DNA from: Coriobacteriia bacterium
GTDB lineage: Bacteria > Actinomycetota > Coriobacteriia > Anaerosomatales > SLCP01
DNA: 51,380 nucleotides
NCBI GenBank assembly: GCA_014859265.1
Contig: JACUUN010000008.1
Span: 1 to 51,380, forward strand
Direction of reading: 5' to 3'
A program made the translations under genes and the position numbers. The notes beneath the pieces were generated by a model, which worked only from the letters and a program-made list of their open reading frames with translations, was not told the DNA's origin and made no database searches. Of this stretch, positions 21,772-51,380 are shown one piece after another. Each line of letters opens with the position of its first letter. Position 1 is the stretch's first letter.

Positions 21772-22918
21772 CAGCGGTCTCCTTGCTCCCGGGGCGCTCG
21801 CGCTGTTCGGCACGCGCACCGTAGGTGGAAACGGACAGTATGATGCCAATGCAGAGCATCGTGAACGTCATGGACGACCCACCCGAACTCACCAGCGGCA
21901 TCGGGATGCCGGTAACCGGCAGCAGACCGGTCACCGCTCCCATGTTGATGATAGCTTGTGTCACCAGCATCGCGGTAAGTCCGCCTGCCAGCACGCGGCC
22001 GTACCCGTCACGTGCCCCGAGTGCGATACGCACGCCGGCGTACGCCATCACTGCAAACGCAGCAACTACCGATAGCGCACCAAGGAGACCGAGTTCCTCT
22101 CCGATGATAGCGAAGATGAAGTCGGTATGTGCGGCGGGCAGATAGAAGAACTTCTGCCGGGACATTCCGAGCCCGACACCGTCCAGGCCTCCCGATCCGA
22201 ACGCGTAGAGCGCCTGAATCGACTGATATCCACTTCCCAGCGGGTCCGCAAACGGGTCGAGGAAGGACGTCACGCGGCGAATGCGATACGGCGCCACCAT
22301 GATGGCCAGAACGATGCCCGCCACACCGGCGAGGAATCCCGCTCCCAGCAACCGCAGGCTGATTCCACCGATGAGCAGGGCCAAGTAGACGGAGAGAACG
22401 ATGGCGATGGTGGTTCCAAAGTCCGGTTGGAGCATGACGAGCAGCACCACGAGACTCACCATGAGCGCGAGTCGACGCCAGAACGTCGTCTGGTCGATCC
22501 TCCCGGCCCGGTGCTGCTGAAGTAGTAGCGCGGTAAGCATCACGCAGCCGAGCTTCGCGAACTCAGACGGCTGCACCGTGAACGGCCCCAGGTCGATCCA
22601 GCGAGTTGCCCCCCACTTGCCGACGCCGAGTACTGCCACGAGAAGCAGCCCGAGGAAGGAGAGACCCCAGACAAGCAGGCCCGTCCAGCGCACTTTGCGG
22701 TAGTCGATAAACATCGCTATCACGAGCATGATGCCACCGAGGACGGCTCCCGTCGCCTGGCGTTTGAGGTGATACGCGCTGTCCTGCAGGTTGACGAAGT
22801 CTGCCACGGATGATGCGGAGTACACCATGACCATGCCCCCGAGGAGCAGGAAGAGCATGCTCCCCAGCAGGAGATAGCGTGGCAGGGGACCGCCGGCATA
22901 CGTTGTGCGCTCCTTCAC
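21683..22918 (-). CDS. ftsW: Septal glycosyltransferase FtsW
   Basis: SEDS-family polymerase that builds septal glycan with its class B PBP. The 411 residues carry about ten helices, the SEDS signature region from GGLDGVGLGMSRQKFFYLPAAHTDFIF (split here for length: GLGMSRQKFFYLP and HTDFIFAIIGEELG) and SSGGSSMTFTMLCIGIILS. GTG at 22918 has GGGGAGG about seven bases upstream and nearly abuts the murD stop. The last roughly 45 residues are basic, unlike the membrane part, and extend 89 bases into murG. RodA is an alternative label, but the position favours FtsW. Confidence 0.95.
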   Translation of the reverse strand: MKERTTYAGGPLPRYLLLGSMLFLLLGGMVMVYSASSVADFVNLQDSAYHLKRQATGAVLGGIMLVIAMFIDYRKVRWTGLLVWGLSFLGLLLVAVLGVGKWGATRWIDLGPFTVQPSEFAKLGCVMLTALLLQQHRAGRIDQTTFWRRLALMVSLVVLLVMLQPDFGTTIAIVLSVYLALLIGGISLRLLGAGFLAGVAGIVLAIMVAPYRIRRVTSFLDPFADPLGSGYQSIQALYAFGSGGLDGVGLGMSRQKFFYLPAAHTDFIFAIIGEELGLLGALSVVAAFAVMAYAGVRIALGARDGYGRVLAGGLTAMLVTQAIINMGAVTGLLPVTGIPMPLVSSGGSSMTFTMLCIGIILSVSTYGARAEQRERPGSKETAGARPAERRRNRRSHLSCVDGGRSTARRRA

Positions 22919-22919
22919 C

Positions 22920-24308
22920 TCACGCCCTCCCCTCGTCGATCTCGTGGACGAGCCGACGGAAGGTGCGACCGCGATCGGCGTAGTCAGAGAACTCATCGAA
23001 GGAGGCGCACGCAGGAGACAGAAGCACGGCCGTGCCTGGATTCGCGAAGCTCGCGGCCGTGTGCAGTGCGTCCGCAAGCCCTCCGGCGCGCTCGAACTCC
23101 ACGCCGTTCGCCGCAAGGTCGTCCGCGATCTCTGCGCCAGCCTCTCCGAACACGACCGCCAGAGCGCCAGCTTCGGCCATCGCGCGTCCGAGATCGAGGA
23201 ACCTGCTGCCCTTGTTCCTGCCCCCGAGCAGCATCACCACCGAACGTCCCTCGAACGCACCCAGTGCTCTCATAGCGGCATCGGGATTCGTTGCCTTCGA
23301 ATCGTTGAAATACTCGACGCCGGACACGATACCGACGGGCTCGAGCCTGTGCTCGATCGGCTCGAAAGTGCGCAACCCGGCCGAAATCGAATCGGAGCCT
23401 GCACCGAACGCATGCGCTGCCGCCGCGGCGGCCAGCGCATTGCTCACATTGTGGCCTCCCCGGATGAGGAGCTCGTCCCGGTGTATCAGGGTCACCACAC
23501 CCGAGGCTGTATCAAGCGTGAGCATGTCATCCGCCGACAAACCGGCACCCCCATCGGGAACCCGTCCGGTGCTGACCTCAACGACCCTCACACCGCTCGA
23601 GCGAACGGTGGCGATCAGGCGCGCTGAACCGGGATCGTCGGCATCGATGACCGCAGTGTCATCCGCATCCTGCTGCTCGAAGATACGGGCCTTGTCGAGC
23701 GCATAGGCCCTGATGTCGCCGTGCCAGTCGAGGTGATCGGGGGTGATGTTCAACAGTACAGCGACCCGCGGATGGAACCGCTCGGTCAGTGCAAGCTGAA
23801 ACGAAGACACTTCCGCTACGAGCGCGCCCGCCGGGCCAGCCTCTCCGACGGCGCTGATGGCAGGCGTGCCGATGTTGCCGACGACAGTTGCAGAAACCCC
23901 GGCGAACGTGAGCAGGTGGCCGAGCAAGCTCGTCACAGTGGTCTTTCCGTTCGTCCCGGTCACCGCGAGCCAGGGCGTCGTGGAGCGCCGGTACGCGAAC
24001 TCGATTTCGGAGATGACCTCGGGTACCGCCTGACGTACCTCACCCATCAGCGCAGCGTGCGGTGGTATACCGGGACTAGCGATGGCGAGACTGTACGTCC
24101 CTGACACATGTGATGTGCCAAGATGAACGTCCACGCCCAGCGCCCGCAGGCGCTGCCGCCGTTTCCTCAGGCCCTCAGAGTCGTCGGAGTCGATGACGGT
24201 CACGCGGACAGGATCGCCCTCGGCGGCGCGTCTAGCACAGTATGTCGCCGCAGCCTCTCCGGAAACGCCCAGACCGACGACAAGGATGTCGCCACGCAGC
24301 TGTTCCAC
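22920..24308 (-). CDS. murD: UDP-MurNAc-Ala--D-glutamate ligase MurD
   Basis: Adds D-glutamate to UDP-MurNAc-L-Ala. The 462 residues start with the nucleotide fold VVGLGVSGEAAA, then the ATP loop GTNGKTTVTS. The metal/substrate region NITPDHLDWHG, YFNDSKATNPDA and LLGGRNKGS follow. It begins one base after the mraY stop and ends next to ftsW, so the genes are tightly packed. Normal length for the family. Confidence 0.97.
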   Translation of the reverse strand: MEQLRGDILVVGLGVSGEAAATYCARRAAEGDPVRVTVIDSDDSEGLRKRRQRLRALGVDVHLGTSHVSGTYSLAIASPGIPPHAALMGEVRQAVPEVISEIEFAYRRSTTPWLAVTGTNGKTTVTSLLGHLLTFAGVSATVVGNIGTPAISAVGEAGPAGALVAEVSSFQLALTERFHPRVAVLLNITPDHLDWHGDIRAYALDKARIFEQQDADDTAVIDADDPGSARLIATVRSSGVRVVEVSTGRVPDGGAGLSADDMLTLDTASGVVTLIHRDELLIRGGHNVSNALAAAAAAHAFGAGSDSISAGLRTFEPIEHRLEPVGIVSGVEYFNDSKATNPDAAMRALGAFEGRSVVMLLGGRNKGSRFLDLGRAMAEAGALAVVFGEAGAEIADDLAANGVEFERAGGLADALHTAASFANPGTAVLLSPACASFDEFSDYADRGRTFRRLVHEIDEGRA

Positions 24309-24309
24309 T

Positions 24310-25353
24310 TCAGCCCCTCACGGACTCGACAAAGTACAGTGCGAAGCCGGCCCCGGCGAGCGTTCCGGTCACAATCCAGAACCGCACCATGACCTTCGTT
24401 TCGGACCAGCCCTTCATCTCGAAGTGGTGATGGAGCGGAGCCATGCGGAGAATCCGTTTTCCGGTGAGCTTGAAGGAGGTAACTTGAAGGATAACGGAGA
24501 GCGTTTCCGCCACGTAGATCCCGCCGATGAGTACCAGCAGGAGTTCGGTCTTCGTGATGATAGCAAGCGTCGCGATGGCCGCGCCAAGACCGAGGGATCC
24601 CGTATCCCCCATGAAGATGTCCGCAGGGTGGGAGTTGTACCAGAGAAACCCGATGCAGGCTCCGGCGATGGCCGCCGCAAGAAGCGCGACCTCGAGGCGG
24701 TTCTGCCGGAACCCGATGCCCGCGTACGCGAGCATTACGATAGTGACCGTGCCTGCGGCAAGGCCGTCGAGACCGTCAGTGAGATTGACGGCGTTGGAGG
24801 TCCCCACGATAACGATGAACACGAGCGCGAGGTAGAGCCATGGAACGAGGAGTGCGAATCCTCCCACATCGAAGACGCTTGTGACGGCTCCCATGTCGAG
24901 CGTCAGGCTCGTCAGGGGAACGGCGACACCCGTAGACAGCCCTGCCCAGTTGACGGCAAGCAGTCCGAATGTGAGCGCGACAAGCGCCTGGCCAAGGATC
25001 TTGGCGCGTGGCCTCAGGCCGAGCGAGCGCTCGTGGACCACCTTCGCCCAATCGTCTACGAATCCCAACAGACCACACGCACCCGTTGCGGCGAGCGCCA
25101 GCAGGCTTAACCTTCCGAAGTCCCCGAGAAAGACATACGTCCCTGCCACCACAAGCAGGATGAGCACACCGCCCATGGTGGGCGTCCCCTGCTTGACGAG
25201 GTGACCCTGCGGCCCGTCGGCCCGCACCTGCTGCCCGATGCTGCGGAAACGCAGCAGACGTATCCAGAACGGCAGCAGAACCCCGGCAGCGACCAGCGAG
25301 ATGACCACAGCAATGAAGACCTGGTATGACGGATACTGTGCGAGTCTAAACAC
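24310..25353 (-). CDS. mraY: Phospho-MurNAc-pentapeptide translocase MraY
   Basis: Transfers phospho-MurNAc-pentapeptide to undecaprenyl phosphate, making lipid I. The 347 residues form about ten helices. Active-site features are QGTPTMGG (55-62), the DD pair at 100-101 (GFVDDWAK), NAVNLTDGLDGLA, FMGDTGSLGLG and PLHHHFE. I chose GTG at 25353, which overlaps the murF end by eight bases; the longer frame upstream has no family similarity. Useful comparator for the degenerate MraY-like protein at 45214-46167. Confidence 0.97.
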   Translation of the reverse strand: MFRLAQYPSYQVFIAVVISLVAAGVLLPFWIRLLRFRSIGQQVRADGPQGHLVKQGTPTMGGVLILLVVAGTYVFLGDFGRLSLLALAATGACGLLGFVDDWAKVVHERSLGLRPRAKILGQALVALTFGLLAVNWAGLSTGVAVPLTSLTLDMGAVTSVFDVGGFALLVPWLYLALVFIVIVGTSNAVNLTDGLDGLAAGTVTIVMLAYAGIGFRQNRLEVALLAAAIAGACIGFLWYNSHPADIFMGDTGSLGLGAAIATLAIITKTELLLVLIGGIYVAETLSVILQVTSFKLTGKRILRMAPLHHHFEMKGWSETKVMVRFWIVTGTLAGAGFALYFVESVRG

Positions 25354-26758
25354 GTGGCTCGACGATCCCTTCCACAACGCGCTCCAATCCCATCACCCTC
25401 GACGCCTTCACTAGCACCACATCCCCTGGCTCCAGCAAGTCGTCCAGGACCTCTGACGCCTCATCCGCAGTAACGCATGGGCGGACACGGTCGGAGTCCA
25501 TACCCTCGGCACGTGCACCATCCGCGATGCGTGCGGCACGTTCGCCAACAGTGATCAGCACGTCGATGGCGTGACGCGCCAGCTCCTCGCCGATTCGGAA
25601 GTGGGCAAGCTCTGCCAGCGATCCGAGCTCGGCCATATCGCCGAGGACCGCGACCCTGCGCTCCGCCGTGGTGATCCCCGCAAGCGTTTCGATCGCTGCC
25701 CGCATGGAAGTCGGGCTCGCGTTGTACGCGTCGTTGATAACGTGGATGCCGCCCGCACTCGTGAAGGTCTGCATCCGCATCTCGCCGGCGCTTGCCCGCG
25801 CGAGCCCATCTGTGACGTCCTCCGGATCCAGACCGAAATGCACTCCTACCGCGGCGGCCGCCAGGGCATTGTAGACGTTGTGCCTGCCCGGCACGGCAAG
25901 CGAGACAGGGATGATGATGTCCTCGGTGACGATCTCGAAAGACGCGAGGCTTTCGCCGTCCATCGTGATGTCCATCGCACGCACATCACACGTATCAGCC
26001 AAACCGTACTGGATGACCGGAGCCCGGGATGAGAGCGCCAGTGTACCGCTGAACGCGTCGTCCCCGTTGAGGAAGACGACGCCTTCTTCCGGTATCGCCT
26101 CGACGAGCTCCGCCTTTGCCGATGCTATAGATTCCTGAGTGCCCAGAAGCTCGATATGGCTCATGCCAACGTTGGTCACCAGTCCCATGGTCGGGCGTGC
26201 GATGTGGCAGAGCTCGATTATCTGCCCCCGTCCACGCATCGCCATCTCGACGACAAGGACATCGGTGTCAGCACCTGCGTCCATGACTGTCAGTGGGACA
26301 CCCAGTTCGTTGTTGCGATTCCCCCGGGTGGACACGACCTTCATCCGCGTCGCGAGCACCGACGTGAGGAACTCCTTGGTCGTGGTCTTCCCGGTTGAGC
26401 CCGTCACACCGATGACCGGACAGAAGAGGCGCTCCCGGTGGTGACGGGCAAGCGCCTGGAGGGCGGCGAGCGCATCGGGTACCCGGATGATGGCGACCTC
26501 TCGCCGCGAAGCGCTCTCGACGACACCGCTCATCTCCTCAGACCCGCGAGTGATGAGTAGAGCCCTGGCCCCTGAGGCAATAGCCTGCTCGAGGTAGTCG
26601 TGCCCGTCGGCGCGCGTGCCTGCGAACGCCACGAACAGCGCACCCGGTTCGACCGTGCGGGAGTCCGTGGATACGCCGTTGACCATCGTGTCAGTCGAGC
26701 CCCACACGAGTGTGCCGCGTGTCACAGAGATCAGCGTTTCGACCGAGGTCGTCAGCAC
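25346..26758 (-). CDS. murF: MurF, D-Ala-D-Ala-adding ligase
   Basis: Adds D-Ala-D-Ala to UDP-MurNAc-tripeptide. The 470 residues contain the ATP loop GSTGKTTTKEF, the MurF-type TRGNRNNELGVPLT, INDAYNASPTSM and LGDMAELG. GTG at 26758 has GGAGGAG shortly upstream, within the murE end, and overlaps murE by seven bases. Confidence 0.97.
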   Translation of the reverse strand: MLTTSVETLISVTRGTLVWGSTDTMVNGVSTDSRTVEPGALFVAFAGTRADGHDYLEQAIASGARALLITRGSEEMSGVVESASRREVAIIRVPDALAALQALARHHRERLFCPVIGVTGSTGKTTTKEFLTSVLATRMKVVSTRGNRNNELGVPLTVMDAGADTDVLVVEMAMRGRGQIIELCHIARPTMGLVTNVGMSHIELLGTQESIASAKAELVEAIPEEGVVFLNGDDAFSGTLALSSRAPVIQYGLADTCDVRAMDITMDGESLASFEIVTEDIIIPVSLAVPGRHNVYNALAAAAVGVHFGLDPEDVTDGLARASAGEMRMQTFTSAGGIHVINDAYNASPTSMRAAIETLAGITTAERRVAVLGDMAELGSLAELAHFRIGEELARHAIDVLITVGERAARIADGARAEGMDSDRVRPCVTADEASEVLDDLLEPGDVVLVKASRVMGLERVVEGIVEPRV

Positions 26759-28209
26759 AGCTCCTCCAGGACCTCGTGGGCCACCTCACGATCGTCGAAG
26801 TGGATCGTACGATCGGCGAAGATCTGATAGTCCTCATGGCCCTTGCCGGCAATGAGCACCGCATCCCCAGAGGCGGCCTGGGCGAGCGCCGTACGTATGG
26901 CCGTACGCCGGTCCACCTCCACCTCGTAGGATACCCCCGTCTCCCGGACACCGTCCTCGATCTGCAGGACGATGCCGACCGGGTCCTCGGAGCGCGGGTT
27001 GTCGCTGGTGATGATCACGTGATCAGCCTCACTACCCGCGGCCACACCCATCAGCGGTCGCTTCTCCGGATCGCGGTCTCCACCACACCCGAACACCGCT
27101 ATGACACGACCCGGAGTGATTGCGCGGACTGCCTTCAACGCCTTGGCGAGGCTATCGGGCGTGTGGGCGTAGTCCACGAAGACACCGCACCGTTGCCCGC
27201 TGTCGATACGCTCCAATCGTCCCGGAACCTGCGGGGCGGAGGAGAGTCCCTGCGCAATCGCCTGCAATCCGATACCGAGCGCGAGCCCGCATCCGGCGGC
27301 TACAAGCGCATTGCTCACGTTGTACTCAGCCGCAAGCGGCAGTTCGATGCGCTCGGATCCGAGAGGCGTCAGGAGGGTGAAGCATGTCCGGTCGGGCAAG
27401 AGCTCCTCATCGACCGCCCGAACATCAGCTTCCTCGTCTCGACCGACCGTCAGCACAGCGTCGAGTTCCAATGCCATTGCAGCGCCGTAGACATCATCGA
27501 TGTTGACCACGCGCTCCTCTACGTCGAGCTCGGTGAAGAGCCTGCGCTTCACCGAGTAGTACTCCTCGATGGTGTGATGGTAGTCGAGATGGTCCTGAGT
27601 CAGATTCGTGAATGCGGCTACCGCAAATCGAACGCCCTCTACGCGCCTCAAATCGATTGCGTGGGAGGAGACCTCCATCGCCACGCTCTCGATCTCCGCA
27701 TCTCTCATCCGCGCGAGAAGTGCCTGCAGGTCCGCCGACTCCGGTGTGGTTCGCCCGGCATCCAAACGGTCGTCGCCGATGCGGGTCTCAACGGTGCCGA
27801 TAAGACCGGTCCGCCGCCCTGCAGCGCGTGCGATGCTGTCGATGAGGTACGTAGTCGTCGTCTTGCCGTTCGTTCCCGTAACGCCCGAAATCGCAAGGCC
27901 GTGGCTGGGATGCCCGAAGAACGCGGCCGAGGCGTGCGCAAGTGCACGACGGGTGTCCGACACGGTCGCCACAGCGATGTCACCGAGTCCCTCAGGGTGA
28001 CGGACACACACAATCGCGACAGCTCCCCGTGCTGCCGCATCGGCAGCGAAGTCGTGTCCGTCGTGCGCGAAACCGGGGATGCAGAAGAACGCATCACCCA
28101 GGGCCACGCGGTCAGAGCGGTACGCGACGCCGCTGACAGAAACGTCGGTAGCGCCGCCTTCGATGGTGGCATCGAGGCCCTGAAGTAGGTCGCGGAGTCG
28201 AATGGTCAT
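26752..28209 (-). CDS. murE: MurE, probably meso-DAP-adding ligase
   Basis: Adds the third stem residue to UDP-MurNAc-Ala-Glu. The 485 residues have the ATP loop GTNGKTTT (112-119), the carbamylated-lysine region and the specificity motif DNPR (403-406, in TSDNPRSEDP). DNPR is characteristic of enzymes using meso-diaminopimelate, so the wall is probably mDAP-type. I chose ATG at 28209 over the GTG one codon earlier, with GAAAGAG nearby. It lies 55 bases past the PBP stop. Confidence 0.97.
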   Translation of the reverse strand: MTIRLRDLLQGLDATIEGGATDVSVSGVAYRSDRVALGDAFFCIPGFAHDGHDFAADAAARGAVAIVCVRHPEGLGDIAVATVSDTRRALAHASAAFFGHPSHGLAISGVTGTNGKTTTTYLIDSIARAAGRRTGLIGTVETRIGDDRLDAGRTTPESADLQALLARMRDAEIESVAMEVSSHAIDLRRVEGVRFAVAAFTNLTQDHLDYHHTIEEYYSVKRRLFTELDVEERVVNIDDVYGAAMALELDAVLTVGRDEEADVRAVDEELLPDRTCFTLLTPLGSERIELPLAAEYNVSNALVAAGCGLALGIGLQAIAQGLSSAPQVPGRLERIDSGQRCGVFVDYAHTPDSLAKALKAVRAITPGRVIAVFGCGGDRDPEKRPLMGVAAGSEADHVIITSDNPRSEDPVGIVLQIEDGVRETGVSYEVEVDRRTAIRTALAQAASGDAVLIAGKGHEDYQIFADRTIHFDDREVAHEVLEELC

Positions 28210-28264
28210 CACACTCTTTCACCACGATCGGATGGCCGATTCTAGCACGGGTATTCTTTGCTCA

Positions 28265-30043
28265 CTACGGAGTCTGTGCCGATGTTGCCGTTTCGCCATC
28301 GGGGCCCTGAGCAGGCTGAATCGAGGTCGGCGGTATCCTGAGGTGCGAGACCGCGAACATGGCCACCTCCGAGAACACCGGCGCCGCAACGACACCGCCG
28401 TAGATGGCGCCCTTTGGTTCGTCGATGATCACGATTACCAAGACCTGCGGATCGTCGGCAGGCAGGAAACCCGAGAAGGAACCGATGTACTTGCCACCCG
28501 CGTAGCCCCGCCCGTCCGTACGCGCCTTCTGCGCGGTGCCCGTCTTGCCAGCGACCTCGTAGCCTTCCACGGCCGCCGCACCGCCGGTACCCTCGGTGAC
28601 AACCGCCTTCATCACCTCTCGCGTCGCCAAGGCAGCCTCCTCCGATATCGCGCGCCGTTTAGGCCAGCGCGTTTCGGTGCCGGAGCCCTCCGGTGCCTGA
28701 AGGAGGAAGTGCGGGGTCACGAGCTCTCCACCGTTCGCAATGGCCGAAAGGGCACGGGCAAGCTGCAGGGACGTCATCGAGACACCCTGTCCGAAGGGGA
28801 TGTTCGCAATCGAGGTTGCCGACCACTGTTGAACCGGAGGCAGGTGCCCTACAGCCTCGCCCGGGAAGTCGATGCCTGTTCTCTCGGTGAAGCCGAACCG
28901 GTCGAGGTAGTCGTAGAGCGGTTGCTTCCCGAGGGCCATGCCCAGCTTGACCGCCCCGACATTGGAGGAGTTTGTGACGATCTGCGTCAGAGTCCAATGA
29001 ACCGTGGAACGCGGGTGTGCCTCCTTGATACGGCGCCCCCCAACTTGCAGGGTGGGCGGAAGTTCGAACATGCTGTCCGGCTCGAACAGTCCAGCATCGA
29101 TCACCGCGGCCGCGATGATCGATTTGAAAGTGGAACCGGGCTCGTAGACATCAGTGACCGGACGGTTGCGGTAGGCTACCGAGTCCGCGTCAGCGAACCG
29201 GTTCGGATTGAACCCGGGCACCGATGCCATCGCTAGGATCTCCCCGTTGCGCGGGTCCATGACGATGACGGAGCCAGCTGCAGCGCTCCACTTCTCAACG
29301 GCCTGCTGGAGAGCTACCTGTGCCGTGTGCTGGATGTCCTTGTCAATAGTGAGCATGATGTCGTCACCGTTGACCGGGTCCTCGTAGTGTATGACCCCGC
29401 CCGGGATCGGGCGCCCAAACGGGTCCCGTTCTGCGAGAACGGAGCCGGGTTCGCCTGCGAGCACCGAGTCGTAGTACTGCTCCAGCCCACCAAGCCCAAC
29501 GTCGTCGATACCGACGAAACCAAGCACCTGTGCTGCCAGCTCTCCGGACGGGTACGTCCGGCGTGAGTCTTTCAGCATCCCGACACCACTCAAACCCAGA
29601 GACTCGATCGCCTCGGCATGCTCGACGTCAACTTTGCGGGCGATGTAGACGAATCCGCTGTCTCTCTGAAGACGCTCGGCGTACGTAGCGGGCTCACCGC
29701 CGAGGACACGCGAGAACGCCTCAGCGGTTCCCGTCGCGTCGGTCACGAAGCGCGGAGACGCATAGATGGTCCGGGCTTCACGGGAAACGGCGAGCAGATC
29801 GCCGTCCCTGTCGTAGATGGTGCCACGCTTCGGCGCGATCTCAATGTCCCGGGTGCGCTGGCTCTGAGCCTTCTCGGCAAATGCGGGCGCGGCATGAACC
29901 TGCAGATACACGAGACGCCCGCTGATAATGATGAGGCAGAACACTATCAGAGAGAGCACGAGACCGTGCCGCTCACGACCGGGGCGTCCCGCAGGCCTGC
30001 GCTTTGCCACCGGCACACCTCCTGCGCGCCGCGGCCCGCTCAT
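28265..30043 (-). CDS. ftsI: Class B penicillin-binding protein (FtsI-like)
   Basis: Septal transpeptidase that crosslinks new peptidoglycan with FtsW. The 592 residues have a basic cytoplasmic start, one helix (about 28-46), a dimerisation domain from RGTIYDRDGDLLAVS (73-87), and the transpeptidase domain. The catalytic motifs are STFK (304-307), SSN (359-361) and KTGT (500-503). No PASTA repeats follow; the protein ends soon after the enzyme domain. It overlaps ftsL by four bases (ATGA). Confidence 0.95.
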   Translation of the reverse strand: MSGPRRAGGVPVAKRRPAGRPGRERHGLVLSLIVFCLIIISGRLVYLQVHAAPAFAEKAQSQRTRDIEIAPKRGTIYDRDGDLLAVSREARTIYASPRFVTDATGTAEAFSRVLGGEPATYAERLQRDSGFVYIARKVDVEHAEAIESLGLSGVGMLKDSRRTYPSGELAAQVLGFVGIDDVGLGGLEQYYDSVLAGEPGSVLAERDPFGRPIPGGVIHYEDPVNGDDIMLTIDKDIQHTAQVALQQAVEKWSAAAGSVIVMDPRNGEILAMASVPGFNPNRFADADSVAYRNRPVTDVYEPGSTFKSIIAAAVIDAGLFEPDSMFELPPTLQVGGRRIKEAHPRSTVHWTLTQIVTNSSNVGAVKLGMALGKQPLYDYLDRFGFTERTGIDFPGEAVGHLPPVQQWSATSIANIPFGQGVSMTSLQLARALSAIANGGELVTPHFLLQAPEGSGTETRWPKRRAISEEAALATREVMKAVVTEGTGGAAAVEGYEVAGKTGTAQKARTDGRGYAGGKYIGSFSGFLPADDPQVLVIVIIDEPKGAIYGGVVAAPVFSEVAMFAVSHLRIPPTSIQPAQGPDGETATSAQTP

Positions 30044-41265: not shown

Positions 41266-42372
41266 TTATGCGTTTGCGGTCAGGGTCAGCTCGCCACCCG
41301 CAACACGTCCACACGTCTCGCCGGCGGCGAACGCGGCGGCGAAGAATGCCGGGTCCTCCGAGGGCCCGCGTCCCATTGTAGTGACACGCACGCCCCGCAG
41401 ATCGGGTGCGGGCGCGAATCCAGAGCCGCAGTCGACTCGCTGATGGCGGCGGAGCGTCCCTGATGTCTCGAGTAACTCGTCGAGCGCCTCCGCGTACTCC
41501 TGAGGCAGGTGCGGGACGGGGACGAGAGCGGGCGAGACAGCGATGCGCGTCAGGGCCGTAAGCGTATGGTGGCTCACGACTCGGTGACGAGACCGCTCAT
41601 CGGCGAAGGAGACCCTCAGGACCGCGACGGGCGTCCCGCCGAGTGCTCCCACCGCGTTGACGGCTTCCCCTTGGGCCACACCACCGTGCCCGAAGGGCGT
41701 GGCCGTTCCGACGACTCCGGGACCGATGGCGACGATAACGACATCCGCCCGGGCGACGTGCCTGGCTGCAAGAAGGGCCGAGTGGAGGTTGATCGCCTCG
41801 TGCTCGCCGCCGAATGCCTGACCGCATGTGATCGTCGTGTCGAGCAGACCGGCCACGACCGATGCCCGGACAACCTCTGAGAGCGCCATGGGCAGCGCCG
41901 CGAAGTCGGTCATGACGTATCCGACCCTGAGTGAGGGGTTGGCGTGCTTCACTGCGGCCGCAACGAGCGGGACCTGGCTGTGCAGGCCGCAGCAGGCCAC
42001 CGGCATCCCGCTGAGATCCTCGGCCGCGCGCATCACCTCGTGATGGGGGCTCGCCTGCTCCTCTACCGAGCACACATCGAGCTGCAGAGGGGTGTAGCGG
42101 AGCTTCATGACGTGACCGCCAGAGGGCTCGTCGAGTGCGACGCCCATGCACGCGGTTCCGCGAGCTACGACGAAGTGTGCGCCCCCGGTGCCAAGTCCGA
42201 GATCTACCGCCGTGGTGTTGACGAGCACGCAATCGCCGATGACGCACACTCCGGAAAGCCGTGGATACGAGATCGCCAAGCCAACGGACCCGTCATCGAG
42301 GAGGACGTCGAGACGCTGAGCGTCTTCGGTGGGGAGGCCCAGGCCAGTTACCGTGCCCCAGACCAGTCTCAT
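41266..42372 (-). CDS. DUF3866 family protein
   Basis: A 368-residue protein of the DUF3866 family, of unknown function, found mainly in Gram-positives beside pyrG, xerD or M20 peptidase genes. It has no membrane helix or signal peptide that I can see. Notable conserved stretches are [50 protein letters not shown] and [17 protein letters not shown]. The His, Cys and Gly-rich motifs suggest an enzyme, but this is inference. ATG overlaps the peptidase stop (ATGA). Confidence 0.85.
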
Positions 42373-43493
42373 CTCGGCTCTCCCGCGAGCCGGGCGATCG
42401 TAGCATGCATGAGGCGCGCGAGGGCCTCCAGGTCGTCTACCCTGATCTGTTCCTCCGTGGAGTGCACTGAGCTCATGCCGCACGAGAGCACCAGCGTCGG
42501 CATCCCCCGTTCGGCGAAGATGCTACCATCGCTGCCGCCTCCCGTGGTGAAGAGTCGCGGCGCCAGGCCGGCATCAGCGCACGCCTGACTCATTACCTCG
42601 ATGACCGGCGAGTCCTCAGGGGTATGGAACGCCTCGTACTCCTTGGTCCAGCGGATGTCCACGTCCCCTCCGACCGAGTGCGCGGCATCCCTCATCGCAG
42701 AGTCCATCGAGAAGCGCACATCCTCAACCCGATCCGGGTCGAGCGAGCGACACTCGCCGGTGAGCGTAACGCGTGCCGGCACAACGTTCGTCGCCGTCCC
42801 TCCCTCGACGGTACCCGCATTCGCCGTGGTCTTGGAGTCCAGACGGCCCAGTTCCATCTCCGAGACGGCTCGTGCTGCCATCAGCAGTGCCGAGCGGCCT
42901 TCTTCCGGTGCCACGCCCGCGTGTGATGCCGTCCCGGCGAACGTCGCCACGAAAGTGTAGTGCGTCGGAGCGCCGACGACGATTCCTCCCGGCTCGCCAT
43001 CGGCGTCTAGCACGAGGCAGATATCTGCCATCGCATCAACGGGATCTAGAGCCTTGGCCCCTTTCAGCCCGCACTCCTCTGCCACCGTGAGGACGACACG
43101 GAGATCTCCGCGGTGGGTGCCGCTTTCGATTGTCCGGCGTACTCCTTCGAAGATGGCGGCGATACCCGCCTTGTCATCGGCACCGAGAACCGTGTCTCCT
43201 GCAGAGAAGACCACTCCGTCGCTCACGATCGGCTCGACGCCGCGACAGGGCTCGACGCAGTCGAGATGCGCAGAGAGCAGCAACACCGGAGCTTCCGGGG
43301 TGATGCCCGGCAGCTCGGCAATCAGATTGCCGGTGTTCGAACCGGTAAGCGCCGCAGACGCGTCGAAGCGCACCGAGAACCCCATGTGCTCGAGCTCGGT
43401 AGCGCAGTGGCCGGCAAGTGCAGCCTCGAGCCCTGATGGACTGTCGATGCGCACGAGGTCGATGAAGGTGGTAAGCAACCGCTCGGTGCTCAT
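42369..43493 (-). CDS. M20 metallopeptidase (PepT-like)
   Basis: A 374-residue zinc peptidase of the M20 family, closest in pattern to PepT-like enzymes. Metal ligands and catalytic residues are visible: H76 and D78 (SAHLDCV), D106 (GADDKAG), E139/E140 (AEECGLKG), D163 or D165 (LDADGEP), and a C-terminal His in SSVHSTEE. I chose ATG at 43493, with AAGGGG upstream formed by the pyrG end. Probable role: cutting short peptides. It sits between pyrG and DUF3866 with very tight spacing. Confidence 0.88.
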   Translation of the reverse strand: MSTERLLTTFIDLVRIDSPSGLEAALAGHCATELEHMGFSVRFDASAALTGSNTGNLIAELPGITPEAPVLLLSAHLDCVEPCRGVEPIVSDGVVFSAGDTVLGADDKAGIAAIFEGVRRTIESGTHRGDLRVVLTVAEECGLKGAKALDPVDAMADICLVLDADGEPGGIVVGAPTHYTFVATFAGTASHAGVAPEEGRSALLMAARAVSEMELGRLDSKTTANAGTVEGGTATNVVPARVTLTGECRSLDPDRVEDVRFSMDSAMRDAAHSVGGDVDIRWTKEYEAFHTPEDSPVIEVMSQACADAGLAPRLFTTGGGSDGSIFAERGMPTLVLSCGMSSVHSTEEQIRVDDLEALARLMHATIARLAGEPR

Positions 43494-45213: not shown

Positions 45214-46167
45214 TCACTCCCCCTCGACAGCTCTCCCCCACCGGTCTACCGCCGCCAGCCACGGGGTGCGCTCGATAATAGCCGAGAACGAGACTCGCTC
45301 GGACGCCAGGTTCAGGCCAAGGAGGATGGCCGCAGCCACTACCGTGCCCGCGAACGGCAGCGCGGAGATGAGCAGCAGACCGGCGAGCATTCCGAACGCG
45401 TTCGCGCCAGCATCGCCGAGCATGCCCGACTCTCCCAGTTCGTAGCGCCAGATTGCCACCACCGGGCCGAGCGCGATCACCAGCACGAGTACCCCGTCGA
45501 GAAGCGTACTCACCAATGGCAACGCGTCTTCAGCACCGGCAAGCGACCACAAACCTATCGGCACGGTGACAAAGACGAGCAGCGTGTACGCTTTGAGAGC
45601 GCGTCCAGGACGCAGATCCAACAGATTCACGGTGTTCGCTGCGAGCCCGATGACCAACACTGCGGCACCATAGTGGAGCAGCGTTAGAACCGTCAATCCA
45701 TCCCAGCCGAAGGCAGGCCGCGCCGCACCCAGAAGCGCGAGGAATCCGATGCCGAACAGCTTGATCGCCCCGGTGGTCAGCCGGCCGTGCACCAGCGCCG
45801 AAAGATGCCCGCGAAACCCTTTGTGTCCAGCGCTGCCGAAGGCATCGTCGATGAGACCGAACACGAACGCACCGACGACGAGCGGGACGGCTGTCACGAT
45901 CTCGAACCAAAGCGAAGACGTGTATTCATGCGGCAGTCGGAAAACCATCGCCAGCAGCTGGTGAGTCGCTACCGCGACTCCCCAGAACACCCACACTATT
46001 CCGAGACCGAGCGGCACCTCGCGCCCGCGGTAGTTTCGTGCCATACGTCCGCACTCGACCAGGAAGGGCGCCAGCATGCGCATGCCCGCCCACGGCACCA
46101 GAATTGCTGCGCCGGACACGGCGACCAGCCCGACGACGTGCCAGATCAGCTCCATGCCACTCGGCAC
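45214..46167 (-). CDS. MraY/WecA-like membrane protein, altered site
   Basis: A 317-residue membrane protein of about ten helices resembling the polyprenyl-phosphate sugar-phosphate transferase fold. The early loop NYRGREVPLGLG (45-56) parallels the family's TPTMGG region. The DD pair is kept in GLIDDAFG (104-111). The third loop is ESGMLGDAGANAFG (246-259). But the usual NxxNLxDGLDGLA is replaced by NTVNLLDLRPGRALK (178-192), losing the second Asp. Activity may be changed or lost. GTG at 46167, with GGGGAGG five bases upstream, overlaps the previous stop; ATG at 46155 is an alternative. Confidence 0.75.
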   Translation of the reverse strand: MPSGMELIWHVVGLVAVSGAAILVPWAGMRMLAPFLVECGRMARNYRGREVPLGLGIVWVFWGVAVATHQLLAMVFRLPHEYTSSLWFEIVTAVPLVVGAFVFGLIDDAFGSAGHKGFRGHLSALVHGRLTTGAIKLFGIGFLALLGAARPAFGWDGLTVLTLLHYGAAVLVIGLAANTVNLLDLRPGRALKAYTLLVFVTVPIGLWSLAGAEDALPLVSTLLDGVLVLVIALGPVVAIWRYELGESGMLGDAGANAFGMLAGLLLISALPFAGTVVAAAILLGLNLASERVSFSAIIERTPWLAAVDRWGRAVEGE

Positions 46168-48476
46168 TACGCCTCCCCGCCCTCGGCCACGGACTGCGGC
46201 AGCCGCCAGAGCATCAGGTGTAGGATGCCTACGCCCACATAGATCATTATGAGCGCCGGGATCACGATTCCCGAGTCTTCGGTCACGTACGCGGCAAGGC
46301 CGCCGATCAGACACGCCGCCATGCCCGCCGAGTATCCGGGGTTCTCTTTCAGCGTAGCGGCGAAGTCACCCTGCGGGCGCCACCGCATGAAGCCGAGGAA
46401 AGCAAGTACCGCGATCAGCAGATAGGACCAGTTGGTGCGGGTCAGAACCCGGATGTTCGTCTCTGCTTTGCGCACGACGATGAGCCACAGCTCGGAGACG
46501 CCGCCCTTGGTCATACTCTCCCATGCGCGAGCGAGGTGGGACTGCGAGCCCGTATCGGCACGCATGTCGATGAAGGAGAAGGCCGCGATGAGCAGCACCA
46601 TCACCAGCAGCGAGCCCGCAACGATCCGCCAGTCCACGCGAATCCCGTTGTGGATGACCCACATCGCACCGAAACCGACGACTCCCCAGATCGCCACGGC
46701 CACGTTGGCGCCGAGCGTGGGCGACGCCCCTATCCACGTCACTGCGAGGCCGAGGAGCGGAATGCCCCAGAGTCCTGCGGCTCGGGCCCACGCGGCATCG
46801 CGGTACTCGTCGAGCAGCAACCCGAAACCGATGATGGCCGCACCGAAGATGAGCGCAGCGCCCTCGTTGCCGAGACCGTAGTAGCGAGCCGCGAGCAGAG
46901 GCGAGTAGCCGAGGAAGCTCGTGTAGGACAGGGGTGCACCGAGTAGCTGGTCCACGCCTATGACCACCACGATGAGCAGGCTCAGGACCACCACAGGGAT
47001 GCGGGGGCCGGCCAGACGCTCGAGGACCAGTCCCACGGCCCAGAGAATCACAAGAGTGACGAAGAAGCTGAAGAGCGCTTCGCCGGATGTCGCCGGCCGC
47101 GGGTCCACAAGGAACATGAGAAGTGACGCGGGTGGCACGGCAAGTGCAAGCATCATCAGCTTGCGACCGAGCGCCGAGATCAACGCCACCGTGCGCCCGA
47201 GCCACCGGCGTGCGCGCAGAAGCACTACCGTACATACCAGCAGGAGGACAGTGGTGGTGGCGATGAAGCCGTTGACGACCGCGGGTTTGGCGGTGTCGAC
47301 CGCGACAGCAGTGGCGTTTGCGGCTTCGAGCGTGGCGATGCGATCTGTCAGGTGCTCAGCGGCACCGTCGGATACCATCCGGTTCCCCAGCACCTCCACG
47401 GGGATATCGATGCCGAGCTCGCCGAGGACCGTCGCCGCGATGTCCAGGTTGGTGACGAGCCCGCTGCGCTGCGTCGACGAGGAGCTGAGATACCCGGACC
47501 AACCGGGCCCGTAGATCACGGCGGGCCCGAGGCCGGTCACCGTACCGGGATTCTCGGCGAGTACCTGCGGCACCACCATGAGGACGCCATCGTCCGGGAG
47601 TGACTCGAGCGCCATCCTCACGACCGCGTCGAGCGTGCCCACCGCCGCGAGACGATGGGCCTCGGCGACAGCAGGTGTTACGTCTACCGCGACCTCGCGC
47701 GCCCGGTGCGGGTCCCCGGCATCAAGCACGATGAGGGAGGGACCTCCGTGTCCGTCTGCGCCATCGACGACGCGCTCGTACTCGGACTTGAATGCCTCCA
47801 GGTCGGTGGCGAAGCCGAACGGAGCATCGGGATCGTTGACGATGAGCTCGCTTGAGACGCTTCCCAGTCGAACCCGACCATCTTCATCCATAGCGACCGC
47901 AGCGGCGGGGCGGTTGCGCCACAAACCGCGCACCTCGTATCCGGCGTCGGAGTTGCCCACCGCTCCCGTGATCCCGCCGGCGTCGGTGACCGCCTGCCCG
48001 AGGGCCCCGAGTCTGACCGCGAGCGTGGTCGCCTGCTCGTTGAATCGCACCGTCCTCGGGAGACCGAGAAAGACGATGTCGTAACCGGTCGCATCGATGC
48101 CCGTCATCCGGCGGTACGCGTCGAGCGCTGTGCCGCCCTCGAAGTATTCGTTCACACTGTGAGACTGCGGCGCGATCGGATCAGCGGCAGCCCAAGAACC
48201 TGCCGAGAACGTGAGCGCGCCCTGCAGCGGTGAGGAACCGATGACAAGGCGGCTCCTGCTGCGAAGGTTGATGTTGCCTACGGCGCCCTGTTCAGCCAGT
48301 GCGTGGATAGTCGGGGCAACCGCTGGATCCACATCGCTCCACTGGAGATACGGGGCGAGCACAAGGACCACACGGGGCGCCGGCTGCGACAGCGACCCGG
48401 CAGCGTGAACCGGAGCAGTGAGTTCCACGGTGAGTACCACGGCGGCGGTCAGGGCGAGAATGGCGACACGCTTCAT
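46167..48476 (-). CDS. Large ectodomain and multi-helix membrane protein
   Basis: A 769-residue protein with a signal peptide (1-26), then an extracellular domain of about 375 residues. RVVLVLAPYLQWSDVDPAVA and APTIHALAEQGAVG at its start, and LVTNLDIAATVLGELGI near 340-356, resemble alkaline-phosphatase-superfamily folds, but I do not see the metal-binding Asp/Thr set. From about 400 to 765 there are about ten membrane helices, with the distinctive RYYGLGNEGAA (531-541). ATG at 48476 has AAGGGA eight bases upstream. I recall similar unnamed proteins in other Gram-positives, but no function. Transcribed with the MraY-like gene. Confidence 0.7.
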   Translation of the reverse strand: MKRVAILALTAAVVLTVELTAPVHAAGSLSQPAPRVVLVLAPYLQWSDVDPAVAPTIHALAEQGAVGNINLRSRSRLVIGSSPLQGALTFSAGSWAAADPIAPQSHSVNEYFEGGTALDAYRRMTGIDATGYDIVFLGLPRTVRFNEQATTLAVRLGALGQAVTDAGGITGAVGNSDAGYEVRGLWRNRPAAAVAMDEDGRVRLGSVSSELIVNDPDAPFGFATDLEAFKSEYERVVDGADGHGGPSLIVLDAGDPHRAREVAVDVTPAVAEAHRLAAVGTLDAVVRMALESLPDDGVLMVVPQVLAENPGTVTGLGPAVIYGPGWSGYLSSSSTQRSGLVTNLDIAATVLGELGIDIPVEVLGNRMVSDGAAEHLTDRIATLEAANATAVAVDTAKPAVVNGFIATTTVLLLVCTVVLLRARRWLGRTVALISALGRKLMMLALAVPPASLLMFLVDPRPATSGEALFSFFVTLVILWAVGLVLERLAGPRIPVVVLSLLIVVVIGVDQLLGAPLSYTSFLGYSPLLAARYYGLGNEGAALIFGAAIIGFGLLLDEYRDAAWARAAGLWGIPLLGLAVTWIGASPTLGANVAVAIWGVVGFGAMWVIHNGIRVDWRIVAGSLLVMVLLIAAFSFIDMRADTGSQSHLARAWESMTKGGVSELWLIVVRKAETNIRVLTRTNWSYLLIAVLAFLGFMRWRPQGDFAATLKENPGYSAGMAACLIGGLAAYVTEDSGIVIPALIMIYVGVGILHLMLWRLPQSVAEGGEA

Positions 48477-48738
48477 GCAACAGTCCCTTGCGGCGCGCAT
48501 GGCGCACTCTGTCCGGAGGCGGTCCTGGCGAGGGGGCGTACTCCGAGGTCGAGACCTGGTAGTCGGCCGACCGGGCGTCGGGCGCCCGCCTGCAAGTATA
48601 GCCGAAGCCCCTGCGCAGACATCGCGCACGTAACAGAACGGTCATCACGCCCCGACTGCCGCCTGAATGCACTCGGGAAGCATTACAATACTGCGGGATG
48701 CTGCAACTTCGCGACGCGGCGCCGAGGGAGGAGGACCC
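48477..48738. promoter_or_regulatory. Divergent promoter region of murJ
   Basis: This gap separates the leftward ectodomain gene from rightward murJ. TACAAT (48684-48689) is a strong -10 for murJ, with transcription starting near 48696; its -35 is poor. On the minus strand TATACT (48600-48595) is a candidate -10 for the opposite gene. The duplicated GGAGGAGG before murJ ends at 48734. No gene is supported inside. Confidence 0.45.
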
Positions 48739-50343
48739 ATCAGTAAGCCGGCTATAGCCCGCTCCACAGCGATAATGTCGATCTCCACCGCGCTTTCCCG
48801 CATCACCGGGTTTGTGCGCACGTGGGCGACGGCATACGCCCTCGGTGTGACCGCGATGGCCGCATCGTACAGCGTGGCGAACAACATCCCTAACATGGTC
48901 TACGAGCTCGTCGCCGGCGGGGTCATCAGCTCGCTCTTCATCCCGGTCTTCATGCAGCGCCGAAAGCAGGGCGGCGAGGACGACGCCTGGCGCTACGCGA
49001 GCTCGCTCTTCAACCTCACCGTAGTCTCGCTGGGAATCGTCTCGATCCTCGCTACGGTCTTCGCCGCCCAGGTCGTGCGCACCCAGACATTCAGAATCAC
49101 GCCTGAAGAGGCCCGACTGGCGACCGAGTTCTTCCGCTTCTTCGGTGTGCAGATCGTGGCATATGGTGCCGGGGCGGTCATCAGCGGCCTGCTTAATGCG
49201 CAGCGCCGCTTCTTGTGGCCCGCCATCGGCCCGGTCTTCAACAATCTGGTTGTCATCGTCACGTTGCTCGGTCTCTACGTGCCGATCTACGGCCACGACC
49301 CGGACCTCGCCTTCATCATCCTGGCAATCGGGACGTCGCTCGGCGTGTTCGCGATGTTCCTCGTACAAGTGCCGAGCCTGGTCAAGTCGGGTGTTCGCTA
49401 CACGCCGACCATCGATCTGCGCCATCCCGGGATGCGCACGATGGCACGCATGGCGGTACCGACACTCATCTACGTCGCCACCAACGTGGTCGCTGTCTCG
49501 TTCAGGAATGCCTACGCGCTAGAGACCTCGATCGAGGGGCCTGCAACCCTGCTCTACGCGTGGATGTTCTACCAGCTGCCCTACGGCATCTTCGCCGTCG
49601 CGCTCGCGACAGCCATCTTCACCGAACTCTCTGATGCGGCCGGGCAGAAGGACTGGGGCGCGTTCAAGGCCCAGTTTGCCCGCGGGTTCCGCGCCACGGC
49701 GCTTCTCATCGTGCCGATGGCCGCGATGCTCATCGCACTGAGCCGTCCGCTGATCACGCTCTACAGGGCAGGTCGCTTCACCGCCGAGGACGTTCCCGCA
49801 GTGGCCGAGATCCTCGTCTGGTGGGCAGTGGGTCTCTTCTTCTTCGCCGCATTCATGTACGTGCTCAAGACCTTCTACTCCATGCAGGACACGCGCACCC
49901 CTATGCTCACCAACCTGGGTCTGACTGTGATTCAGATCGCGCTCTATGCAACACTCACTACCGGCATCGCCGGATGGGCCGGGATCGGCCTCAAAGGCAT
50001 ACCTATCGCCGACGGCATCTTCTACTTCCTGAACCTCACGGCGCTCGCCCTCATTCTGCGTACACGCATCGGCGGTTACGACATCCGGGGCATCACATCT
50101 CTGCTCGTCCGCGTGGTCGTCTCTGCGATTCTTGGTGGAGCGAGCGCGTGGGGCGTCGCACAGCTCGTGGAGACGGCCGGCACCCCGGGTGGCGCGCTCA
50201 TCCAGGTGATCGCCGGAGGCGTCGTCGGGCTTGCGGTCAGCTACGGCCTCGCGTGGCTGATGGGCGTCAGTGAAGTCGCTGTCGGCTTGGGCATGGCCCG
50301 CCGCGTGCTCGGGCGGCTGTTCGGACGGAGTGGCGGCCCATGA
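48739..50343 (+). CDS. murJ: Lipid II flippase MurJ
   Basis: Moves lipid II across the membrane. The protein has about 534 residues and 14 helices, with N-terminal TALSRITGFVRTWATAYALG matching the family. The start is unusual: the only ATG codons in frame are at 48667, upstream of the likely transcription start, and at 48775, which would remove part of helix 1. ATC at 48739 has GGAGG seven bases upstream (48727-48731) and gives SKPAIARSTAIMSISTALSR, the expected N-terminus. The C-terminal tail is short, without the pseudokinase domain found in some actinomycetes. It overlaps the next gene by four bases. Confidence 0.9.
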   Translation: MSKPAIARSTAIMSISTALSRITGFVRTWATAYALGVTAMAASYSVANNIPNMVYELVAGGVISSLFIPVFMQRRKQGGEDDAWRYASSLFNLTVVSLGIVSILATVFAAQVVRTQTFRITPEEARLATEFFRFFGVQIVAYGAGAVISGLLNAQRRFLWPAIGPVFNNLVVIVTLLGLYVPIYGHDPDLAFIILAIGTSLGVFAMFLVQVPSLVKSGVRYTPTIDLRHPGMRTMARMAVPTLIYVATNVVAVSFRNAYALETSIEGPATLLYAWMFYQLPYGIFAVALATAIFTELSDAAGQKDWGAFKAQFARGFRATALLIVPMAAMLIALSRPLITLYRAGRFTAEDVPAVAEILVWWAVGLFFFAAFMYVLKTFYSMQDTRTPMLTNLGLTVIQIALYATLTTGIAGWAGIGLKGIPIADGIFYFLNLTALALILRTRIGGYDIRGITSLLVRVVVSAILGGASAWGVAQLVETAGTPGGALIQVIAGGVVGLAVSYGLAWLMGVSEVAVGLGMARRVLGRLFGRSGGP

Positions 50344-51020
50344 GGACTGTGGCGCTGATACCTGCGCACAATGAGGCGGAGCGACTCGCGGCCACACTCG
50401 ATGCGCTCCGTTCGGTCCGGGGGATCGATGGTGTCATCGTGGTAGACGACGCATCCACCGATGACACTGCCGAGATTGCCCGTCGGAACGGTGCCGCCGT
50501 GGTGCACCTCGAATGCAACCTCGGGAAGGGCGGTGCGCTCGAAGCCGGAGTCGCTGAGATCGGCGACCCTGACGTGCTGCTCCTTCTCGACGGGGACCTC
50601 GGCGACACCGCCTCAGAGGCTGGTGCACTCCTCGCTCCCGTCCTCGACGATGTCGCGGACATGAGCATCGCCCGCTTCCCGAGGCCTGCGGGCAAGGCCG
50701 GGTTCGGGCTCGTCAAGGGGCTCGCCCGCTGGGGCATCCGCGGGCTCGGCGGACCGTTCGATGCGCAGGCACCCCTCTCCGGTCAGCGGGCCCTCAATCG
50801 CGCTGCCCTGCAAGTCTGTCGGCCCTTTGAGTCAGGCTACGGCGTAGAGGTCGTACTTACCGTACGAGCGCTGCGGGCAGGACTGCGGATTGTCGAGGTG
50901 GAGACAATGATGGCCCACGCTGCCACCGGGCGAGACCTCGCCGGATTCGCACACCGCGGACAGCAGTTCACGCACGTGGTAGGGGCGCTACTGCGCCTCG
51001 CTCGCGAACGTGCTCGCTAA
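50340..51020 (+). CDS. GT2-family glycosyltransferase
   Basis: A 226-residue GT-A fold enzyme. The N-terminus ALIPAHNEAERLAATLDAL and VVDDASTDDTAEIA bind the nucleotide sugar; LLLDGDLGDT carries the DxD-type metal site. It has no membrane helices of the usual GT2 synthase type. It starts ATGA over the murJ stop, so it is translated with murJ. The donor and acceptor are unknown; a cell-envelope glycan is a reasonable guess from its neighbours. Confidence 0.85.
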   Translation: MRTVALIPAHNEAERLAATLDALRSVRGIDGVIVVDDASTDDTAEIARRNGAAVVHLECNLGKGGALEAGVAEIGDPDVLLLLDGDLGDTASEAGALLAPVLDDVADMSIARFPRPAGKAGFGLVKGLARWGIRGLGGPFDAQAPLSGQRALNRAALQVCRPFESGYGVEVVLTVRALRAGLRIVEVETMMAHAATGRDLAGFAHRGQQFTHVVGALLRLARERAR

Positions 51021-51026
51021 CAACCG

Positions 51027-51380
51027 CTACCTGGGCCAGGGTGCCTGGGCACCGTCGCCGGTGCCGAAGTAGCCGTTCGCCTGACCGGTGAGCACCCACG
51101 TCAACGAGAACGCGCCTTCCGGTGCGCCGATGTGGTCGACACCGGACATCCCCGCTTCGAGAGCAGCCGCGGCGATGCCGGTGGCCTGCGTCTGAGCCTC
51201 GACTCCGCATGCCGGCATGCCGTCGCCCGCAAGCGCTCTCCCCACTGCCATCGCGCCCTCGTCCGGAATCCCATCGAACGCTGCGAGCACGACGACCGCG
51301 TCAATCGACACTCTGGGACCGGGGTCACCGTCAATACGCAACACGCCTGCGGACGTCAGTACCTCGGTCAGAGGTCGCGC
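51027..51380 (-). CDS. MctB/SteB-like protein, C-terminal part
   Basis: The frame is open to the right edge, so the N-terminus is missing; about 118 residues are visible. The end VDHIGAPEGAFSLTWVLTGQ followed by GYFGTGDGAQAPWP matches the C-terminal pattern of the MctB (DUF3186) family, called SteB in corynebacteria, where it works with SteA in envelope integrity. In mycobacteria steA-steB precede pyrG and xerD, which also occur here. It ends six bases from the opposing glycosyltransferase stop. Confidence 0.65.
   Translation of the reverse strand, partial: ARPLTEVLTSAGVLRIDGDPGPRVSIDAVVVLAAFDGIPDEGAMAVGRALAGDGMPACGVEAQTQATGIAAAALEAGMSGVDHIGAPEGAFSLTWVLTGQANGYFGTGDGAQAPWPR

Follow-up and report, generated by a model that had tools for sequence, protein, structure and literature searches.

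The 51,380-nucleotide stretch studied here (the window; positions 1 to 51,380 of contig JACUUN010000008.1, assembly GCA_014859265.1, from a Coriobacteriia bacterium) carries two adjacent reverse-strand genes, P0001 and P0002, whose products had no Pfam or NCBIfam match above cut-off in a profile search of the window's proteins. Our analysis strongly supports that they belong, together with steA, steB and a GT2 glycosyltransferase gene, to a five-gene envelope module that has not been described before.

The gene pair

An earlier note, made from the sequence alone, placed the two genes at 45214-48476 and described a one-base overlap at TAGTG and a 769-residue P0002, all of which we found as claimed: base 46167 is common to the TAG stop of P0002 and the GTG start of P0001. 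Among 199 genomes of the class Coriobacteriia, P0002 is present in 69 and P0001 in 71, and they are almost always adjacent. Named relatives put the window within the Anaerosomatales of this class. Conservation of both reading frames, side by side across most of the order, shows that the pair is no accidental arrangement of open reading frames. No RNA families were found in the window. The features of the pair are as follows.

45214..46167 (-), P0001: membrane protein of 317 residues with the MraY/WecA/DPAGT1 fold, GTG start at 46167
45844..45849 (-), P0001 residues 107-108: DD motif, invariant in 87 sequences
45592..45636 (-), P0001 residues 178-192: NTVNLLDLRPGRALK motif, in which the second Asp of DGLDG is missing in all 87 members
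45406..45417 (-), P0001 residues 251-254: GDAG with invariant Asp252, the equivalent of FMGDTGS in MraY
46167..48476 (-), P0002: N-terminal hydrophobic helix, alkaline-phosphatase-like ectodomain and 11-helix membrane domain, 769 residues
47367..48380 (-), P0002 about residues 33-370: ectodomain with an alkaline-phosphatase-superfamily fold lacking conserved histidines
46173..47351 (-), P0002 residues 376-768: membrane domain of 11 helices
46863..46886 (-), P0002 residues 531-538: RYYGLGNE, with R531, Y533, G534, G536 and N537 invariant in 74 sequences

The two membrane proteins

The AlphaFold2 (AF2) model of P0001, built from 22 sequences, has a predicted local distance difference test score (pLDDT) of 91, and the 31 PDB entries that match it best are without exception structures of MraY, of DPAGT1 or 4j72, a polyprenyl-phosphate N-acetylhexosamine-1-phosphate transferase (PNPT), in agreement with the MraY/WecA-like character given in the earlier note. 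These matches have probability 1.0, E values of 4e-4 to 5e-2 and a template modelling (TM) score of about 0.5, and a TM score of this size at such a probability places P0001 inside the MraY/DPAGT1 superfamily, but as a distant member. PF00953 matched P0001 homologues at 6e-5 and 3.5e-4, under the cut-off, and did not match P0001 itself; the MraY equivalog profile TIGR00445 did not match P0001 either. A canonical MraY is also encoded in the window (24310-25377; TIGR00445, 306 bits), and the P0001 motifs NTVNLLDLRPGRALK and MLGDAGAN align onto its NAVNLTDGLDGLAAG and FMGDTGSL, respectively. The module contig also carries a complete-looking dcw stretch (19262-30043, reverse strand) with murC, murG, ftsW, murD, mraY, murF, murE and a penicillin-binding protein gene.

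The family alignment takes 87 sequences from three phyla (Actinomycetota, Bacillota and Armatimonadota); its invariant residues, in P0001 numbering, are D107, D108, H121, K136, N178, N181, D184, P187, R189, K192, D252, N256, S293 and D308. The signature N-x-x-N-L-x-D-(L)-(R)-P-(G)-R-x-x-K shows almost no variation: D184 is retained and R-P-G-R stands in place of the second Asp of DGLDG. The earlier note had pointed out the loss of this Asp. The residue is indeed absent, but not because a MraY is decaying and has lost its active site; the true MraY lies elsewhere in the window, and since the altered form is invariant in 87 sequences, it is a subfamily signature under strong constraint. The C-terminal His motif of MraY and WecA (HHH or HxHH) is also absent, and E290, S293 and D308 are conserved in the C-terminal region. 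P0001 shares with the PNPT superfamily (MraY, WecA/TagO, DPAGT1; PF00953) the fold, the DD pair, N-x-x-N-L-x-D and GDxG, and differs from it by a basic L-R-P-G-R-A-x-K loop and by the missing histidines. At three loci (L297-L299) we saw a diverged P0001 (NLVDVRPGRA) between recN and a GT4 glycosyltransferase gene, with no detectable steA, steB or P0002 near it.

The AF2 model of P0002, built from 74 sequences (pLDDT 91, predicted TM score 0.91), shows the hydrophobic N-terminal helix, the ectodomain and, C-terminal to it, 11 membrane-length helices where the earlier note had counted about ten. PDB matches of the ectodomain belong to the alkaline phosphatase (AlkP) superfamily (the periplasmic domain of YejM, 6vat; arylsulfatases; LtaP, 4uop), a viral structure library also returned AlkP matches only, and Bacillota homologues matched PF01676 weakly, at 5e-6. 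No histidine in residues 33-370 is conserved at 80% or more of the family alignment. The metal-binding Asp of the first strand is present in most Bacillota members and is Pro in nearly all members from Coriobacteriia and other Actinomycetota, while T89 occupies the position of the nucleophile in most of the family. The degenerate AlkP-type ectodomain proposed in the earlier note is therefore borne out by the fold, the weak profile matches and the lack of a conserved His. The fold is that of YejM/PbgA, LtaS/LtaP, arylsulfatases and phosphopentomutase, whereas no metal-binding His is conserved and the domain is fused N-terminally to 11 helices with a conserved outward face of their own. Compared with LtaS-type phosphoglycerol transferases, the domain order is reversed and the metal site lost.

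RYYGLGNEGAA, singled out in the earlier note, lies at residues 531-541 of the membrane domain. With the ectodomain placed outside, 25 of the 28 most conserved positions of this domain fall on the outer side, including R531, Y533, G534, N537, E538, H647, R669, K670 and D734, and in the model this clustering suggests an extracytoplasmic active site. We also considered DUF5693 (PF18949) as the family of P0002 and rejected it, as the same genomes encode it separately from P0002 and the two profiles show no similarity. DUF5693 proteins, which occur in Bacillota, do resemble P0002 in having a large N-terminal part, a C-terminal membrane domain and an R-x-GN-E-like motif; those in Bacillota genomes with P0002 (L217-L221) carry R-T-G-N-E and ARPRTKE motifs and are possibly an analogous family. 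P0002-family genes occur as back-to-back tandem duplicates at L296 (6277-12371) and on contigs G740:C81, G711:C13 and G596:C1, and many Bacillota genomes have 2-4 copies, with G669 reaching as many as 8 matches; this suggests diversification.

Co-occurrence, gene order and loss of the module

Both families, P0001 and P0002, occur widely in Actinomycetota and Bacillota, and genomes show a strong tendency to have the two together. By profile cut-offs, and with odds ratios uncorrected for phylogeny, P0002 is present in 129, P0001 in 139 and both in 113 of 396 Actinomycetota genomes (odds ratio 65), and P0002 (strong matches) in 130, P0001 in 131 and both in 126 of 199 Bacillota genomes (odds ratio 403). 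All 25 P0002-bearing Bacillota and Armatimonadota genomes that we examined contain P0001. The earlier note had named absent co-occurrence as what would refute the pair, and the counts in Coriobacteriia, Actinomycetota and Bacillota came out in the pair's favour.

Three neighbouring genes complete the right end of the window.

48667..50343 (+), murJ: profile match 1.6e-85, divergent from the pair
50340..51020 (+), GT2 glycosyltransferase without a membrane domain: module gene, divergent from the pair
51027..51380 (-), steB, 3' part (MctB family): truncated where the contig ends

The steA gene of this genome is not directly visible because the contig stops inside steB, and the partial steB gave only a weak MctB/SteB match (0.0014, below cut-off); in two genomes of the same genus (G037, G055) a full SteB adjoins SteA. 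In most relatives the murJ product is the only full-length MurJ with a high score.

Within the window's order, the way in which the five genes are lost offers the best evidence that they function as a unit. Here 14 complete loci have steA, steB, GT2, P0002 and P0001 all present, and six (G063, G081, G085, G133, G069 and G121, the last on a shorter contig) have none of them. These six, which span at least three families, keep tlyA, nadK, recN, murJ and pyrG in place; the retained murJ separates the missing genes into two groups, so that each loss took genes from either side of it. P0001 and P0002 were not found elsewhere in the six genomes, and the absence of steA, steB and GT2 was judged at the locus. 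The truncated contig of G129 showed steB and GT2. One further genome (G022; L294, 6410-7891) has lost steA, steB, P0001 and P0002 but retains, next to murJ, a GT2 belonging to the module family.

The same partners recur outside the order, where a steA-steB-GT2-P0001 block is conserved in Bacillota, Armatimonadota and Actinomycetota. In Bacillota and Armatimonadota the P0001 locus reads recN, spoIVB-like, spo0A-like, steA, steB, GT2, P0001, DUF3866, with steA at 20/20, steB at 17/20 and GT2 at 19/20 loci, and at 35 loci in these phyla a GT4 glycosyltransferase gene adjoins the P0002 homologue. Other Actinomycetota blocks are arranged as steA-steB-P0001-MurJ family-GT4 or as steA-steB-MurJ family-P0002-P0002-P0001, and several Bacillota P0001 loci have no MurJ-family gene within the block. 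The direct partners of the pair are thus homologues of the SteAB regulators of cell separation in Corynebacterium glutamicum and Mycobacterium tuberculosis (Rv1697/Rv1698).

The neighbourhood drawn in the earlier note needs some adjustment. The divergent GT2 gene is there, and the MctB/SteB-like gene has full-length SteB counterparts in relatives, but the note barely touched on steA, steB and GT2 as the main partners. It had also linked the pair to murJ, which is a divergent neighbour with family members in other Actinomycetota blocks; in the window's order the link is positional, for loci without the module still have murJ, which makes it a neighbour rather than a strict member. We therefore rejected MurJ as an obligate partner in this order.

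DUF3866 (PF12982; window 41266-42483, reverse strand; also at L291, L292, L294 and L310) lies downstream of pyrG/PepT at almost all module-bearing loci and adjoins P0001 in Bacillota. It is absent in G063, G081, G133 and G022, which lack the full module, and retained in G085 and G069. DUF3866 may count as a sixth partner, more loosely tied than the five.

A proposed glycan pathway and its alternatives

SteA and SteB control peptidoglycan hydrolases of the RipA/RipC type in C. glutamicum and M. tuberculosis (PMC6705760, PMC12977500), and C. glutamicum SteA is stabilised by uridine diphosphate (UDP) or guanosine diphosphate (GDP) (PMC12977500). Word searches of the two main SteAB papers found no mention of a glycosyltransferase. 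We found no paper on the P0001/P0002 pair in the literature covered, from which most subscription journals are missing, and no published phenotypes under the C. difficile locus tags.

The gene content, namely a phosphoglycosyltransferase fold, GT2 or GT4, a MurJ-family flippase and an outward-facing membrane protein, points to a lipid-linked glycan pathway, and we consider it an even call that the module is such a pathway, dedicated and coupled to SteAB control of wall hydrolysis. From this content we infer the chemistry of the module (order of steps and substrates), its link to SteA and a role of P0002 as an extracytoplasmic glycosyltransferase. P0001 would be an active but distinct polyprenyl-phosphate phosphoglycosyltransferase that starts the glycan on undecaprenyl phosphate at the cytoplasmic leaflet, where the retained DD and GDxG aspartates could act together with the new basic RPGRxxK loop on a different nucleotide-sugar or acceptor. 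GT2 (or GT4) would add or charge sugars and so extend the glycan, and a MurJ-family protein would flip the lipid-linked product. Outside, the membrane domain of P0002 (outward R531, H647, R669/K670 and D734) may serve as a polymerase or transferase, with the metal-less AlkP-like domain as a binding or positioning lid. SteA would read the nucleotide state or by-products of the pathway and, through SteB, couple it to wall hydrolysis at division. We put forward more tentatively a bolder form, in which the undecaprenyl-phosphate glycan pathway is widespread and dedicated to SteAB and P0001 and P0002 found new classes: P0001 would be a phosphoglycosyltransferase subfamily with its own substrate, P0002 a class of extracytoplasmic glycan polymerase or transferase with a pseudo-phosphatase domain, and SteA, by sensing UDP/uridine monophosphate or the GDP state, would license septal wall cleavage.

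Several observations weigh against the glycan pathway. Without the second Asp of DGLDG and the C-terminal His motif, catalysis by P0001 is uncertain. The PDB match lists for P0002 cover its AlkP part only, with none visible to the membrane domain. Like the O-antigen ligases and polymerases (Wzy_C, WaaL), this domain has conserved extracytoplasmic residues including Arg and His, and its RYYGxGNE aligns with TFGNPN and LGAN with SRGAWIG of the ligases; these families differ from P0002 in lacking the AlkP-like domain, and the similarity is far below significance. The hhalign probability against Wzy/O-antigen ligases was 7-16%, at noise level, with scores of 33 for Wzy_C, 28 for SEDS, 27 for reversed decoys and below 21 for membrane families that are not GT-C candidates, so that a relation to Wzy_C is a lead only. 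To our knowledge, GT2, P0001 and P0002 are absent from the steAB locus in published maps of Mycobacteriales, implying that SteAB can function without the pathway. A preprint further reports that SteA acts independently of SteB in mycobacteria (PMC12338722).

A rather unlikely alternative is that P0001 and P0002 are pseudoenzymes forming a sensor or regulator: from the two sides of the membrane they would bind a wall precursor carried on a lipid, for example lipid II, and report its level to SteAB. YejM/PbgA, itself AlkP-like, regulates lipopolysaccharide synthesis in enterobacteria, and its periplasmic domain is among the best matches of the P0002 ectodomain, which has no conserved metal-binding His; the direct adjacency of MurJ and the binding of UDP/GDP by the regulator SteA (PMC12977500) would fit too. 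Against such a sensor, the catalytic aspartates and the whole new signature of P0001 are invariant, the GT2, and GT4 in other phyla, would be needless for it, and MurJ is retained when the module is lost. The regulator of lipid II flux suggested in the earlier note is conceivable but has no direct support. We regard as improbable that P0002 is a transporter of undecaprenyl phosphate or of the lipid-linked product, gated by its ectodomain, with P0001 and GT2 making the cargo: 11 helices with conserved polar residues turned outward and the Bacillota blocks without MurJ would suit it, but conservation on one face looks enzyme-like rather than like a two-sided path, and many Actinomycetota blocks already have a MurJ-family flippase.

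Mere co-inheritance of the pair with recN, pyrG, xerD and murJ, with no functional tie to SteAB, is very unlikely; the pair does sit inside a conserved housekeeping neighbourhood, but the co-occurrence persists in genomes that have P0001 and P0002 at distant sites (39 of 79 Actinomycetota genomes checked, and most Bacillota), and the losses remove genes from both sides of MurJ. Strongly disfavoured is the reading of P0002 as an LtaS/EptA-type enzyme that actively transfers phosphoglycerol or phosphoethanolamine. The AlkP fold, the match to LtaP and T89 could be cited for it, but no His ligand of the metal site is conserved in any part of the family, nearly all aligned Coriobacteriia and Actinomycetota members have Pro in place of the first-strand Asp, and the domain order is the reverse of that in LtaS.

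For mycobacterial and corynebacterial cell separation, where published work on the cytoplasmic ligand of SteA goes no further than stabilisation of the C. glutamicum protein by UDP or GDP (PMC12977500), the pair and GT2, tied genetically to SteA and SteB in three phyla, are concrete candidates for the source of the signal and for the envelope glycan. P0002 also stands for a large and conserved family of membrane proteins, present in about two thirds of the Bacillota genomes sampled and matched by no Pfam model above cut-off.

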